Below are positions 19,219 through 24,558 of a stretch of DNA of 64,000 bases, piece after piece. Source of the stretch: Synechococcus sp. BIOS-E4-1. Lineage in GTDB: Bacteria; Cyanobacteriota; Cyanobacteriia; PCC-6307; Cyanobiaceae. The notes beneath the pieces are model-generated. The model saw only the letters and a list, made by a program, of their open reading frames with translations. It did not search any database and was not told where the DNA came from. The position numbers and the translations under genes are program-made. The stretch covers positions 1,323,494-1,387,493 of the forward strand of contig NZ_CP047935.1 of assembly GCF_014279995.1 (NCBI RefSeq), given 5' to 3'. Position 1 is the first letter of the stretch; the number at the start of each line of letters is the position of its first letter.

Positions 19219-20382
19219 ATGGGGAGGAACAGAAAAGGTCCCTACAAGACCTCCAAGGGGCCTACTTATTACTGCCGTTTGATCGTGCCGCCAAGGCTAC
19301 GAGAGGTTGTCGGTAAAACATGCCTCACCAGAAGCCTTAAGACCACTAGCTACAACGTTGCTCTGACCCGCTACGGACCTACCTACCTGCAGCTTGAACG
19401 GGAGCTAGAGGCACTGCAGAAGCCCAATGGGCTGGCAGACCTCAGAGAGCACGTAGAGGCGAACAGGGGATATGACGACAACCCAGCAATCCTCACTGAC
19501 CTGTTGGTTGGCTTTGACATGCCCAACCCAACCCAGAAGCAGAAGCTGGTTTACGAGGCTCTCAGCACCGGTAAACCCATCCCTGTGGACTGGGAAGAGG
19601 CAATGCAGCTGTGGATCAAGCTGAAGAACCGCACTAATTCCAGACCACTGGCAGCCGGTTCCATCAAACACGCCACAGCTCAGATCAAACTGATCCAACC
19701 CTATGGATCACCTCATCAGCTAACTAAACAACTGATCTGGGACTTCATTGAAGACCAAGAGGAGCTAGGCAAACAACCCAACACTGTTGCCTCTTACCTA
19801 AAGAATCTCTCTGCCATCACGGAAGTGCTCGTGCAGTTAGATCATCTTGAAGTAAACCTCTTTAAATCAATCTCTTACTCAGTTAAGAATAAGTCTGACA
19901 GACGTTCCTTTACTGATGATGAGCTTTGCTTGATCAAACACAAGCATCCTGAAGCACTACTCCTCACAATGATGGGTCTAAGGATTGAAGAGCTAGAGCA
20001 CGGTGTAGTTGACAAAGACATGTTCGTCATTAATGAGGTCTGGAAGAATGACAAACTCATCTTCAGACCTAAGACACTGTCTAGTTACCGTCGTGTTCCA
20101 TTACCTAAGTCCTACAAGCGTCTTGACCGCAATCAAAGAATACTAAGGAAAAGACTAAGAGACTTAATTCCAGATACCGATGTTGTCTTACATAGTGCTA
20201 GGCACACCTTCATTGAACTCTCTAGAAGAGCAGGCTGTGATGCCAGGATCATTGATGAAGTCTGTGGTCATGGTTCGTCTAGTGGTTCTTCTTCTAATCG
20301 TTCCTACGGTGAATTTCCAGATGAGGTGCTGTTAAGGGAAACTCAAAAGGTCTGGGATCTAATAGAAGATATCACAGGCTGA
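19219..20382 (+). CDS. int: Tyrosine recombinase / integrase
   Basis: 387 residues. The N-terminal part (GPTYYCRLIVPPRLREVVG) resembles phage-integrase arm-binding regions; a SAM-like core-binding domain lies about residues 110-200. The catalytic domain retains the first arginine region (MMGLRIEELEHG), the box LHSARHTFIELSRRAG (His-x-x-Arg) and, after EVCGHGSS, the nucleophile tyrosine in NRSYGEF. It is expected to integrate and excise the island at the flanking repeats. The start is ATG 19219; it reads into the island. Base composition is AT-rich compared with glmU. Confidence 0.92.
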   Translation: MGRNRKGPYKTSKGPTYYCRLIVPPRLREVVGKTCLTRSLKTTSYNVALTRYGPTYLQLERELEALQKPNGLADLREHVEANRGYDDNPAILTDLLVGFDMPNPTQKQKLVYEALSTGKPIPVDWEEAMQLWIKLKNRTNSRPLAAGSIKHATAQIKLIQPYGSPHQLTKQLIWDFIEDQEELGKQPNTVASYLKNLSAITEVLVQLDHLEVNLFKSISYSVKNKSDRRSFTDDELCLIKHKHPEALLLTMMGLRIEELEHGVVDKDMFVINEVWKNDKLIFRPKTLSSYRRVPLPKSYKRLDRNQRILRKRLRDLIPDTDVVLHSARHTFIELSRRAGCDARIIDEVCGHGSSSGSSSNRSYGEFPDEVLLRETQKVWDLIEDITG

Positions 20383-20998: not shown

Positions 20999-21256
20999 AT
21001 GTCAGAAGAGCAACTTAAGGCTTTCCTCGCCAAAGTTCAAGCCGATACTTCACTACAGGAACAGCTCAAAGTAGAAGGAGCTGATGTTGTAGCCATTGCC
21101 AAAGCTGCTGGGTTCTCGATCTCCACAGAAGACTTAAAAGAGCGTCGCCAAGCCCTGTCTGATGCTGAGCTGGAAGTTGCGGCTGGAGGTGTAGAAACAT
21201 TTTGCACGCCAGGATGCCCCACGTGGGAGTGTGCTGATACGTGGAGGTGTGACTGA
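20999..21256 (+). CDS. ProcA-like (prochlorosin-type) precursor peptide
   Basis: 85 residues: a Nif11-type leader (MSEEQLKAFLAKVQADTSLQ; then VVAIAKAAGFSIS) ending in the double-glycine site LEVAAGG at residues 58-64. A 21-residue core with four Cys and four Thr follows (C at core positions 5, 9, 14, 20). This leader is the type found on prochlorosins, whose Ser/Thr and Cys are joined into thioether rings by a ProcM-type LanM enzyme and which are cut after GG by a peptidase-transporter. Neither enzyme is in the window. Ring formation is inferred from family, not seen. Confidence 0.85.
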   Translation: MSEEQLKAFLAKVQADTSLQEQLKVEGADVVAIAKAAGFSISTEDLKERRQALSDAELEVAAGGVETFCTPGCPTWECADTWRCD

Positions 21257-21316
21257 ACAAAAAGTGATAAAACAGAGGAATCTGGAGAGCTGCGCAACCG
21301 GCTAAGCCTACACATT

Positions 21317-21350
21317 CAAAGCGCTTGCATTAGCAGGGGCTTTTTATTGC
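21317..21350 (+). terminator. Terminator-like hairpin after the first Nif11 gene
   Basis: Imperfect stem AAAGCGCTTGC / GCAGGGGCTTTTT. It belongs to the same family as the hairpins after the other cassettes. Confidence 0.5.
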
Positions 21351-21390
21351 TTCATTAGTCTGACTAACCCCATCAATCAGCCTTCAATAC

Positions 21391-21450
21391 CTGGCACGAT
21401 TGAGCGCAGGAGTATTAGCCAAAGACGCTGCAGCAGAACGTTGCTATGAC
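21391..21450 (+). promoter_or_regulatory. Cassette 1 promoter region
   Basis: Box CTGGCACGATTGAGCGC (from 21391), then TTAGCCAAAGAC and the -10 TATGAC at 21445, 27 bases before the ATG. No Shine-Dalgarno between the -10 box and the ATG. Confidence 0.6.
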
Positions 21451-21471
21451 TACTCAACAGACTAGACACCC

Positions 21472-21708
21472 ATGTCGCTAGAACAACTCAAGGCATTCCT
21501 CGCCAAGGTCAAAGGTGATTCCAATCTTCAAGTAAAACTAAAAGCAGCTAAGTCACCTGACGATGTCGTAGGAATTGCAAAAGAACATGGTCATGAATTC
21601 ACTGCTGATAAGATCGAAGAGCTCAGTCAAGAGGAGCTGGAAGGCCTGTCTGGTGGAGGCAACTGTGAGATAACCAACGTGTTGACAAGTTGTCCGAATT
21701 TAGCCTAA
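21472..21708 (+). CDS. Nif11-leader precursor peptide, cassette 1
   Basis: 78 residues. The leader MSLEQLKAFLAKVKGDSNLQ with DDVVGIAKEHGHEFTADKI ends at LEGLSGG. The 16-residue core is GNCEITNVLTSCPNLA, with two Cys, two Thr and one Ser. This leader subtype (MSLEQ, KSPDDVVGIAKEHGHEF) differs from the ProcA subtype of the preceding gene. A thioether product is plausible but cannot be shown. The product would need modification and export enzymes encoded elsewhere. Confidence 0.85.
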   Translation: MSLEQLKAFLAKVKGDSNLQVKLKAAKSPDDVVGIAKEHGHEFTADKIEELSQEELEGLSGGGNCEITNVLTSCPNLA

Positions 21709-21714
21709 CTCAAT

Positions 21715-21744
21715 AAAGCCCCTGCATTGATAGGGGTTTCTTAT
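21715..21744 (+). terminator. Hairpin after cassette 1
   Basis: AAAGCCCCTGCATTGATAGG followed by GGTTTCTT: CCCCT pairs with AGGGG, followed by a T-rich tract. Confidence 0.6.
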
Positions 21745-21787
21745 TGCTTCAATAGCCCAACTAATCCCATAAATAAGCCTTCAATAC

Positions 21788-21848
21788 CTGGCACGATTGA
21801 GCGCAGTAATTGTTAGCCAAAGATATTGCAGCAGGGTGTTGCTATAAC
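21788..21848 (+). promoter_or_regulatory. Cassette 2 promoter region
   Basis: Shared box TGGCACGATTGAGCGC starting 81 bases before the ATG, TTAGCCAAAGA, and -10 TATAAC at 21843, 27 bases before the ATG. Confidence 0.65.
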
Positions 21849-21869
21849 CATTGAAGACTCTCGATACCC

Positions 21870-22118
21870 ATGTCCCTAGAACAACTCAAGGCATTCCTCG
21901 CCAAAGTCAAAGGTGATTCCAATCTTCAAGAGAAACTAAAAGCAGCTAAGTCACCTGACGATGTCGTAGGAATTGCAAAAGAACATGGTCATGAATTCAC
22001 TGCTGATAAGATTGACGGTGAACTCAGTAAAGAGGAACTGGAAGGCGTGGCTGGCGGCGGATGCTGGAAATCATGTGTGGACAGGAATTCGAAGAACTGG
22101 TCGCCACTGTCGTATTGA
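21870..22118 (+). CDS. Nif11-leader precursor peptide, cassette 2
   Basis: 82 residues. The leader is nearly identical to cassette 1 (one extra residue, KIDGELSKEELEGVAGG). The 19-residue core GCWKSCVDRNSKNWSPLSY has two Cys and four Ser and no Thr, so any dehydration would be at serines. The core shares no similarity with the neighbours. Function of the mature peptide unknown. Confidence 0.85.
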   Translation: MSLEQLKAFLAKVKGDSNLQEKLKAAKSPDDVVGIAKEHGHEFTADKIDGELSKEELEGVAGGGCWKSCVDRNSKNWSPLSY

Positions 22119-22128
22119 AGGATGAATC

Positions 22129-22157
22129 AAAGACCTTGCATTAGCAGGGGCTTTTTA
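22129..22157 (+). terminator. Hairpin after cassette 2
   Basis: AAAGACCTTGCATTAGCAGG then GGCTTTTT: CCTTGC pairs with GCAGGG/GCAAGG-like sequence, with a T tract. The stem has one or two mismatches. Confidence 0.5.
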
Positions 22158-22199
22158 TTACATCAATAGTCTGACTAACCCCATAAATCAGCCTTCAAG

Positions 22200-22260
22200 T
22201 TGGCACGATTGAACGCTGTAAATATTAGCCAAAGATATTGTAGCAGGGTGTTGCTATAAC
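22200..22260 (+). promoter_or_regulatory. Cassette 3 promoter region
   Basis: Box TGGCACGATTGAACGC at 22201, TTAGCCAAAGATATTG and -10 TATAAC at 22255, again 27 bases before the ATG. Confidence 0.65.
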
Positions 22261-22281
22261 CATTAAAGACTCTCGATACCC

Positions 22282-22503
22282 ATGTCCCTAGAACAACTCA
22301 AGGCATTCCTCGCCAAGGTCAAAGGCGATTCCAATCTTCAGGAGAAACTAAAAGCAGCTAAGTCACCTGAAGATGTTGTGGGCATCGCTAAAGAACACGG
22401 CCACGAATTCACTGCTGATAAGATCGCTGAACTCAGTGAAGAGGAACTGGAAGGCGTGGCTGGCGGCATTGTTATTGAGTGCTCAATTAAGTATCTGGAT
22501 TAA
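22282..22503 (+). CDS. Nif11-leader precursor peptide, cassette 3 (short core)
   Basis: 73 residues. The leader ends LEGVAGG. The core is only 11 residues (IVIECSIKYLD) with one Cys next to one Ser, too short for a multi-ring product. Downstream, the gene-junction sequence CTGGCGGCATTG recurs at 22508 and GCTGGCGG recurs at 22524, as if older core ends remain after the present stop codon. The gene may be a truncated or recently rearranged cassette. Confidence 0.8.
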   Translation: MSLEQLKAFLAKVKGDSNLQEKLKAAKSPEDVVGIAKEHGHEFTADKIAELSEEELEGVAGGIVIECSIKYLD

Positions 22504-22608
22504 GAATCTGGCGGCATTGCTTAGCTGGCGGTGGACCTTATTGATGTGAGCTGGGGACGGTGCCGACCTCCTAGAGCCTAGCGACTTTAGTATATTGAAG
22601 GATGAATC

Positions 22609-22639
22609 AAAGCCCCTGCAAACGCAGGGGCTTTTTATT
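22609..22639 (+). terminator. Strong terminator after cassette 3
   Basis: Perfect stem AAAGCCCCTGC - AAAC - GCAGGGGCTTT followed by TTATT. The best-conserved hairpin of the array. Confidence 0.85.
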
Positions 22640-22681
22640 GCTTCAATCACCCCCAAAAGACCATCAATCAGCCTTCAATAC

Positions 22682-22742
22682 CTGGCACGATTGTGCGCAG
22701 TAATTATTAGCCAAAGACACTTCAAGGTATTGTTGCTATAAC
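22682..22742 (+). promoter_or_regulatory. Cassette 4 promoter region
   Basis: Box TGGCACGATTGTGCGC at 22683, TTAGCCAAAGACAC and -10 TATAAC at 22737, 27 bases before the ATG. Confidence 0.65.
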
Positions 22743-22763
22743 CGCTAGATACTCCCGATACCC

Positions 22764-23030
22764 ATGTCAGAAGAACAACTCAAAGCCTTCCTCGAAAAAG
22801 TCAAAGCAGACACCAGCCTTCAGGAGAAGCTCAAGGCTGAGCGTGTTGATGTTGTAGCTATTGCTAAGGCTGCTGGTTTCTCTATCACGCCTGACGACAT
22901 AAATTTACTTCGAGAAAACATTTCTGAAAAAGAGCTAGAGGCTATCCTTGGTGGTGCCGGATCTGCTAATCCTCAGGGCGGGGATCCATGGTGCACTTGG
23001 GATTACCCCATTTGCATAAATAATAAATAA
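22764..23030 (+). CDS. ProcA-type precursor peptide, cassette 4
   Basis: 88 residues. The leader is of the ProcA subtype (MSEEQLKAFLEKVKADTSLQ; VVAIAKAAGFSIT), though the promoter is that of the MSLEQ cassettes. Cleavage site LEAILGG; 24-residue core with two Cys, one Ser and one Thr (PWCTWDYPICINNK at the end), again candidates for thioether rings. No terminator hairpin follows before the next cassette's box. The mix of promoter type and leader type suggests recombination between cassettes. Confidence 0.85.
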   Translation: MSEEQLKAFLEKVKADTSLQEKLKAERVDVVAIAKAAGFSITPDDINLLRENISEKELEAILGGAGSANPQGGDPWCTWDYPICINNK

Positions 23031-23050
23031 CACAAAGCAAACTTTAATAC

Positions 23051-23110
23051 CTGGCACGATTGAGCGCTTAAGCATTAGCTAAAGACACTACAGCAGACCG
23101 TTGCTATAAA
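23051..23110 (+). promoter_or_regulatory. Cassette 5 promoter region
   Basis: Box CTGGCACGATTGAGCGC at 23051, TTAGCTAAAGACAC and -10 TATAAA at 23105, 27 bases before the ATG. Confidence 0.65.
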
Positions 23111-23131
23111 TGCTGAACAGACCTAATACCC

Positions 23132-23383
23132 ATGTCCCTAGAACAACTCAAGGCATTTCTCTCCAAAGTCAAAGGTGATTCCAATCTTCAGGAGAAACTA
23201 AAAGCAGCTAAGTCACCTGAAGATGTTGTAGGCATTGCTAAAGAACATGGCCACGAAATCACTGCTGATAAGATCAACCAGCTCAGTGATGAGGAACTGG
23301 AAGGCGTGTCTGGGGGGTTAATACAGAAAACCATTCTTTGTAAACAGAACACCATTTTTGGTAGTCAATGTATTTGTGAGTAA
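23132..23383 (+). CDS. Nif11-leader precursor peptide, cassette 5
   Basis: 83 residues. Leader of the MSLEQ subtype ending LEGVSGG; 21-residue core with three Cys, two Thr and one Ser (LIQKTILCKQNTIFG, then SQCICE). Last of the tandem series. As for its neighbours, the modification enzyme is not in the window. Confidence 0.85.
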   Translation: MSLEQLKAFLSKVKGDSNLQEKLKAAKSPEDVVGIAKEHGHEITADKINQLSDEELEGVSGGLIQKTILCKQNTIFGSQCICE

Positions 23384-24134: not shown

Positions 24135-24305
24135 ATGGCCTCAGCAACAGAACACAAGACCCTATGCAAAGAGTGGGTCAACCGTAAATACGGTGTCACT
24201 GAATTACCTCAGGACATCGAAGCCGTTCATCAACTGATCACGTCGGTCGATTGCTTCATAACAGATCCAACTCTATTCCCAGTAACTGGCCATTTAATTC
24301 CTTAG
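24135..24305 (+). CDS. Possible small protein, 56 residues
   Basis: Reads MASATEHKTLCKEWVNRKYG, then VTELPQDIEAVHQLITSVDC, ending GHLIP. Plausible composition, no membrane helix, unrecognised. Its last 50 bp overlap the antisense end of the minus-strand Nif11 gene, so at most one of the two 3' ends is constrained there. Confidence 0.35.
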   Translation: MASATEHKTLCKEWVNRKYGVTELPQDIEAVHQLITSVDCFITDPTLFPVTGHLIP

Positions 24306-24558
24306 TAGCAGCCTTGGCCGCAGCAGGACAGTGAGCCTGTTGCGGTGCTCCTTTCCCTCCAGAAACCGCTTCTAGTTCCTCTTTCGATAGCTCTGACATC
24401 TTTGATTTGAATGCTGTTAGAAGGTCCTCAGTACTGATTTCAATACCGTGATTTGCGGCAATCTTCACGGCCTCTTCTGCAGTTGTGGCTGTTGTAATAG
24501 ATTCCCTCAACTCAGCATTTGTCGTGATGCTATTTAATAGATCTTCTTGGACGGACAT
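24256..24558 (-). CDS. Nif11-leader peptide, minus-strand copy
   Basis: 100 residues: MSVQEDLLNSITTNAELRES, EEAVKIAANHGIEISTEDL, and a cleavage-like site LEAVSGG. A 32-residue tail with one Cys and one Thr, rich in Ala and Leu, follows. The leader is diverged from the tandem cassettes and lies in the opposite orientation. With so few Cys/Ser/Thr it may not be a lanthipeptide precursor; it could carry another modification or be a regulator of the array. Function unknown. Confidence 0.75.
   Translation of the reverse strand: MSVQEDLLNSITTNAELRESITTATTAEEAVKIAANHGIEISTEDLLTAFKSKMSELSKEELEAVSGGKGAPQQAHCPAAAKAATKELNGQLLGIELDLL

Follow-up and report, generated by a model that had tools for sequence, protein, structure and literature searches.

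Repeated leader/core junctions behind the stop of a prochlorosin-type precursor gene in a Synechococcus cassette array

The window, by which we mean the whole 64,000-nucleotide stretch of DNA analysed here, belongs to a 3.31-Mb genome on one contig that carries more than 100 prochlorosin-type precursor genes. It contains an array of six plus-strand Nif11-leader precursor genes, the fourth of which, called cassette 3 in a first-pass annotation of this DNA, is the subject of this study. The array and the gene are laid out as follows.

20999-23383, plus strand: array of six Nif11-leader cassettes, starting at 20999, 21472, 21870, 22282, 22764 and 23132
22282-22467, plus strand: leader of cassette 3, of the Nif11 type, with the GG codons at its end (22462-22467); the profile matches refer to the whole precursor, 22282-22503
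22468-22503, plus strand: current core of cassette 3 by translation, IVIECSIKYLD (11 residues), with its TAA stop

The cassette 3 precursor matched the profiles TIGR03798 (E-value of 6.7e-26, 90.3 bits, curated cut-off 32.3) and PF07862 (2.2e-20, 73.1 bits, curated cut-off 23.8). Its core has both C and S behind the double glycine, as is typical of the prochlorosin type, and C together with S or T was found in the cores of 226 of 242 cassettes. Judged by these sequence features, cassette 3 is a prochlorosin-type precursor with a Nif11 leader. The core had been called unusually short. It does belong to the shortest tenth, as 24 of 242 cassettes have cores of 11 residues or fewer, but with a median of 19 it is not exceptional. 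A search of its own genome with the cassette 3 precursor gave 256 candidate places, and all 150 that were scored matched; 136 cassettes were recovered by pattern from the own-genome stretches that were fetched. In named records, the loci nearest to the leaders of this genome are from Synechococcus and Prochlorococcus, which suggests a marine Synechococcus.

Prochlorosins, the class II lanthipeptide precursors (ProcA/SyncA) of marine Synechococcus and Prochlorococcus, likewise combine a Nif11-type leader, a double glycine and a variable core with Cys and Ser/Thr, and occur in many copies per genome with LanM-type (PF13575) genes located elsewhere. Three PF13575 genes scored above the cut-off in the present genome, none of them inside the window. 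Cassette 3 differs in having extra leader/core junctions behind its stop, a feature that is clear in few cassettes; its product and the modification of that product are predictions.

Immediately upstream of the array, at 19219-20382 on the plus strand, is the gene of a protein with an N-terminal DUF6538 domain, which we take to be integrase-like. Another Nif11-leader precursor, at 24256-24558 on the minus strand, carries KGAPQQAHCPAAAKAATKELNGQLLGIELDLL behind its GG. Two tandem-repeat arrays with a period of 132 bp (5.3 and 6.8 copies) occupy 372-2058. Elsewhere in the genome, two cassettes appear to be decayed, with stops in the matched leader frame (G000:C1:1405407-1405828 and 1564391-1564576). 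The genes flanking the cassette array are, as we read the translations by eye, presumably a glmU-like and an aroA-like gene, and since these stand on either side, the array may be an integrated island.

The first-pass annotation had reported that the bases spanning the GG junction of cassette 3, CTGGCGGCATTG at 22460, recur at 22508, that a third junction follows at 22524 and that a stop lies behind each. All of this was borne out, and the features concerned are given below.

22460-22471, plus strand: junction copy 1, CTGGCGGCATTG, by exact match
22508-22524, plus strand: junction copy 2, CTGGCGGCATTG followed by CTTAG, in the leader frame with TAG at 22522-22524; probably a local duplication
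22519-22531, plus strand: junction copy 3, a degenerate leader end, GCTTAGCTGGCGG, matching 22454-22466 at 11 of 13 bases
22533-22574, plus strand: putative older core GPY*CELGTVPTS, with one in-frame TGA and ending in TAG at 22572-22574, from alignment and translation

Copies 1 and 2 recur exactly (22460-22471 and 22508-22519) at a spacing of 48. This 12-mer is found at just two places in the window, and the remaining 26 of the 28 matches listed carry two mismatches. The third junction, GCTGGCGGTGG, spans 22524-22534. The three stops are a TAA ending at 22503, a TAG at 22522-22524 and a TGA at 22542-22544. Copy 2 reads GGC ATT GCT TAG, which is SGGIA-stop in the leader frame. Copy 3 reads GGC GGT GGA CCT TAT TGA, or AGGGPY-stop, in a frame that differs from the leader's; extended to GCTTAGCTGGCGG (22519-22531), it has 11 of 13 bases in common with the leader end GCGTGGCTGGCGG (22454-22466). 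By the listing of the motif [GT]CTGGNGG, cassette 3 is alone among 242 cassettes in having two extra junction motifs behind its stop.

Relatives of this cassette were found in two genomes, G005 and G028. Among the matches listed for 31 genomes of the genus, and for 400 of the family in each of which no more than two candidates were scored, these were the only two with the same 3' UTR, beginning at CTAGAGCCTAGCGACTTTAG. The 3' half of the leader is also as in the window in these two genomes, with a single core, AWCLECIYRTSVGKIKLSDGWCKVN, and without an extra junction. The comparison divides the downstream part of cassette 3 into two segments.

22467-22570, plus strand: exchanged core segment, which differs from the G005/G028 module in the alignment
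22571-22660, plus strand: 3' UTR common to G005 and G028 (96%), with a terminator-like hairpin at 22609-22634

Divergence starts directly after CTGGCGG and stops directly before CTAG, so that the breakpoints coincide with the GG codons and the stop. There is one main common stretch, 394 bp at 89%, running from the leader start to past the terminator, besides shorter matches to other cassettes. The genes neighbouring the cassette in G005 and G028 are unrelated to those in the window. As the flanks outside the cassette differ, the unit resembles a mobile module, with an exchanged core segment, more than a syntenic gene. As the same leader half and the same 3' UTR enclose a different core in the two relatives, the alignment indicates that this gene type has exchanged cores, in one direction or the other. 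A 26-mer of the 3' UTR had no match in genome_contigs and a 19-mer of it none in viral_contigs, where a search for relatives of the leader found none either. Mapping displaced stops through shared 3' UTRs was abandoned, as the matches were mostly to generic terminators, and these are excluded from all counts.

The two downstream copies appear to differ in origin. In copy 2, CTGGCGG is followed by a repeat of CATTG, which is the last base of the second Gly codon plus the four bases with which the current core begins. The match to the leader end before the core start is only 7 nt, CTGGCGG, just two codons precede the stop, and the frame does not end on the stop shared by G005 and G028. Considering this repeat of the core start and the presence of only two codons, we suggest that copy 2 is probably a local 12-bp direct duplication around a 36-bp stretch rather than an older core. 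Bar one TGA, the frame of copy 3 reaches the TAG at 22572-22574. This TAG is aligned with the G005 and G028 stop, an agreement that would arise by accident in one case in three. Being a degenerate copy of the leader end (11/13) whose frame leads to the shared stop, copy 3 may front the previous core of cassette 3, since broken by an in-frame stop. That this putative core stops after three residues counts against its displacement.

We searched for intact versions of the putative relic cores. The relic stretch had no counterpart in its own genome (best other match with an E-value of 2.6) or in the 400 family genomes, 31 of them from the genus and each with at most two candidates scored (best other E-value 0.0025, outside cassettes). 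Weak matches in G011 and G281 (per-genome E-values of 0.0025 and 0.0077) were set aside as chance, since their translations place them outside Nif11 cassettes. No counterpart was found in phage records, and one exact 20-mer of the stretch had no match in viral contigs. In a sensitive search of 60 fetched loci with the current core and relic 3, the best non-self matches were reached by 13 of 60 and 24 of 60 shuffled queries. The check proposed in the first-pass annotation, a comparison with intact cassettes whose cores match the relics, thus returned none in the own genome, the 400 family genomes or the phage and viral collections; nor did these sets and the fetched loci yield a pre-insertion allele of cassette 3 or a donor. 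For three other cassettes with junction repeats, pre-insertion alleles were sought in the 31 genus genomes; one query matched another genome, sharing the 3' UTR and not the core.

Past the junction, the current core and the relic 3 core (TTATTGA in both) are only weakly similar, with a local score reached by 207 of 5000 dinucleotide shuffles and an anchored score reached by 598, and we do not build on a homology between them. A derivation of the current core from a conserved inter-cassette element (ATTGAG..AAGTAT) was suggestive against mononucleotide shuffles (1 of 100) but was rejected, because its score was matched by dinucleotide shuffles (55 of 1000) and by antisense cores (19 of 324).

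To place cassette 3 among its kind, we used cassettes identified by pattern and HMM in the fetched stretches, a procedure that misses degenerate cassettes without a recognisable GG. A first set comprised 242 cassettes; two further sets of 61 and 41 added 53 and 32 that were new and distinct. Identical junction stretches (242 to 239, 61 to 53, 41 to 32), cassettes at locus ends (53 to 52) and low-complexity repeats were dropped before counting. For each of 239 distinct cassettes from six genomes, we took the longest exact repeat that spans the GG junction and recurs 8-130 nt downstream. Such repeats of at least 10 nt occurred in six of the 239, compared with 0.275 per shuffle run, and repeats of at least 12 nt in four, compared with 0.025. 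At four control anchors in the same real DNA, two, three, two and none of the 239 cassettes had repeats of at least 10 nt, versus six at GG. Since the control anchors also give repeats, the junction excess over real DNA is only about threefold. Chance similarity of the repeats, which the first-pass annotation had itself raised as an objection, is therefore unlikely against shuffles, but the margin over real-DNA anchors is much smaller. The added cassettes contained no exact junction-spanning repeats of at least 10 nt (0/52 and 0/32, or 0/84 together).

When mismatches were allowed, seven of 324 cassettes repeated their own leader end within 110 nt with at least 11 of 13 matches, as against one in antisense and 0.35 in shuffles, counts that are post hoc since the 11/13 criterion was set after copy 3 had been observed. 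Five of the seven are among the first 239 cassettes and two among the 85 added ones, and some lack the GG-GG spelling. In the first 242 cassettes, [GT]CTGGNGG within 80 nt behind GG occurred 16 times on the coding strand versus four times on the other strand. A scan for CTGG[CT]GG up to 300 nt behind the stop gave no excess (9 coding, 12 other strand), so the junction signal does not extend beyond the core and the DNA right next to it.

We also looked at how repeats are distributed along the cassettes. With anchors placed every 10 nt in about 322 cassettes, repeats of at least 10 nt were seen in 3-6 cassettes for each anchor from 0 to +60 and in 7 for the one at +80; upstream, the numbers were 0-3 at -150 to -20 and 4 at -10. 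Repeats are thus equally frequent at +20 to +50 and at GG, and the seam is not shown to be special. Exact direct repeats of at least 11 nt with a spacing below 100 had a density of 0.967/kb in cores, based on 23 repeats in 20 of 324 cassettes that are partly non-independent (three in L045, two in L066 and one common to L093 and L139). The same class reached 0.195/kb in leaders and 0.199/kb in other DNA of the same loci. Past the stop, the density of direct repeats of at least 11 nt was 0.312/kb over the first 60 nt and 0.126/kb from 60 to 160 nt. Core DNA thus has about five times its surroundings' density of short local direct repeats, and the junction copies are one kind of these. With short direct duplications so widespread in the core DNA of this family, not every junction copy calls for core swapping as its explanation. 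One example of the core repeat excess is L045 (start 2876), whose core, ADRPATYYWGPATYGPATYSYLF, has visible internal tandem repeats.

Some other cassettes offer parallels. In G005, cassette L059 (minus strand, start 5300) has a 16-nt copy of its leader end 49 nt behind the first, and this copy, read in another frame, forms the tail of its current core, EATGDYRACRTWRGWRGC. Behind the copy there is a further frame, which runs to a TAA. A G028 cassette that has the same 3' UTR but another core uses this TAA as its stop, whereas the current core of L059 stops before it. The frame of the relic junction differs from that of the shared stop, which counts against displacement, and the two copies remain alike past the junction (90% over 30 nt). 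As the frames differ and the similarity persists beyond the junction, L059 may be a tandem duplication too. A cassette of the own genome, L063 (minus strand, start 15166), holds a 12/13 leader-end copy, out of frame within its core; a search of the 30 other genus genomes found no relatives of the core segment.

A comparison for shifted cores gave two single pairs of note. L083 (G028, minus strand, start 16700) and L087 (G025, start 6884) have similar leaders and homologous core DNA read in two frames, giving quite different cores. L077 (G028, minus strand, start 18633) has YH as its core and then a stop, and the downstream DNA continues the homologous longer core of L081 (G028, start 11110).

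With moderate confidence, we favour the reading that the leader/core seam of cassette 3 was copied twice further downstream and that the gained DNA displaced the former core, by short-range duplication or template switching. Starting from the observed repeats, the GG-to-stop exchange relative to two relatives and the excess of direct repeats in cores, we infer that about 65 bp were gained at the seam. The gain would have put the former core, GPY*CELGTVPTS, out of use, still in frame with the shared stop, and installed the new short core in its place. Copy 2 would then have been made inside the gained DNA, as a 12-bp duplication that takes in the beginning of the new core. Such a process probably acted at the GC-rich leader end, with CTGGCGG as the microhomology, and would not be a clean donor-to-recipient swap of whole cores.

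The first-pass annotation had explained the locus by successive core replacement, in which two donor cores were inserted in turn at GG and both downstream junctions belong to older cores that were once functional. This would account for three junctions with a stop behind each, for the core exchange relative to G005 and G028, and for the frame of copy 3, which runs to the shared stop. Copy 2, however, has only two codons and shares with copy 1 the four bases that open the current core, and no matching intact core turned up in the own genome or in the 400 family genomes (at most two candidates scored in each). We regard this scenario as unlikely in full. Core swapping as proposed there is partly supported: the core exchange and one plausible older core, at copy 3, stand, while copy 2 is more likely a duplication.

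Alternatively, two adjacent cassettes may have collapsed, a deletion having joined one core to the next leader end and left a short remnant. Cassettes are arranged in tandem here, and the order of leader, core, leader end and core fits such an event. Nevertheless, the leader end kept only 7 nt in copy 2 and about 13 nt in copy 3, where random deletions would often keep more, and the similarity of the intervening sequence to the inter-cassette element is not significant by the shuffles and antisense cores given above. We consider a collapse quite improbable. Chance similarity in GC-rich sequence seems highly implausible: by the shuffles, about 2 of 239 cassettes should have a single 8-nt junction match, and repeats occur at other core positions as well, but here a 12-nt exact copy and an 11/13 copy lie within one cassette.

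Short duplications reportedly create new core sequence in graspetides and other RiPPs with repeated cores; the repeats of cassette 3 differ from these in spanning the leader/core seam and in lying partly behind the stop. Marine cyanobacterial lanthipeptides are said to be the subject of two central studies, one on their evolutionary radiation and one linking them to TnpA-REP transposases. Among the titles and abstract openings searched, we found no description of leader/core junction relics, although the studies on lanthipeptide radiation and TnpA-REP could hold one. Passages of PMC11251773 describe conserved leaders and a striking diversity of cores, and passages of PMC10783134 attribute prochlorosin diversity to core insertion-deletion events and horizontal transfer, with recombination proteins nearby. 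As in that insertion-deletion model, cassette 3 keeps its leader while the core changes. Unlike there, the gained DNA can bear a recognisable leader-end copy, with a possible older core left behind, of which the passages of PMC10783134 concerned make no mention.

More generally, it is conceivable, if somewhat doubtful, that the leader end works like a ratchet: DNA for a new core would be captured at the GG seam through microhomology with the leader end, pushing the previous core downstream, and some cassettes would keep a short stratigraphy of earlier cores. A displaced core would decay behind the stop or, read in another frame, become the tail of its successor, of which the G005 core ending in RTWRGWRGC would be an example. 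We know of no settled answer to the question of how more than 100 mostly unrelated cores arose behind one conserved leader in one genome. If cores are renewed by short duplications or captures at or near the seam, these would leave readable scars, and the rate and direction of core renewal would become measurable across strains.
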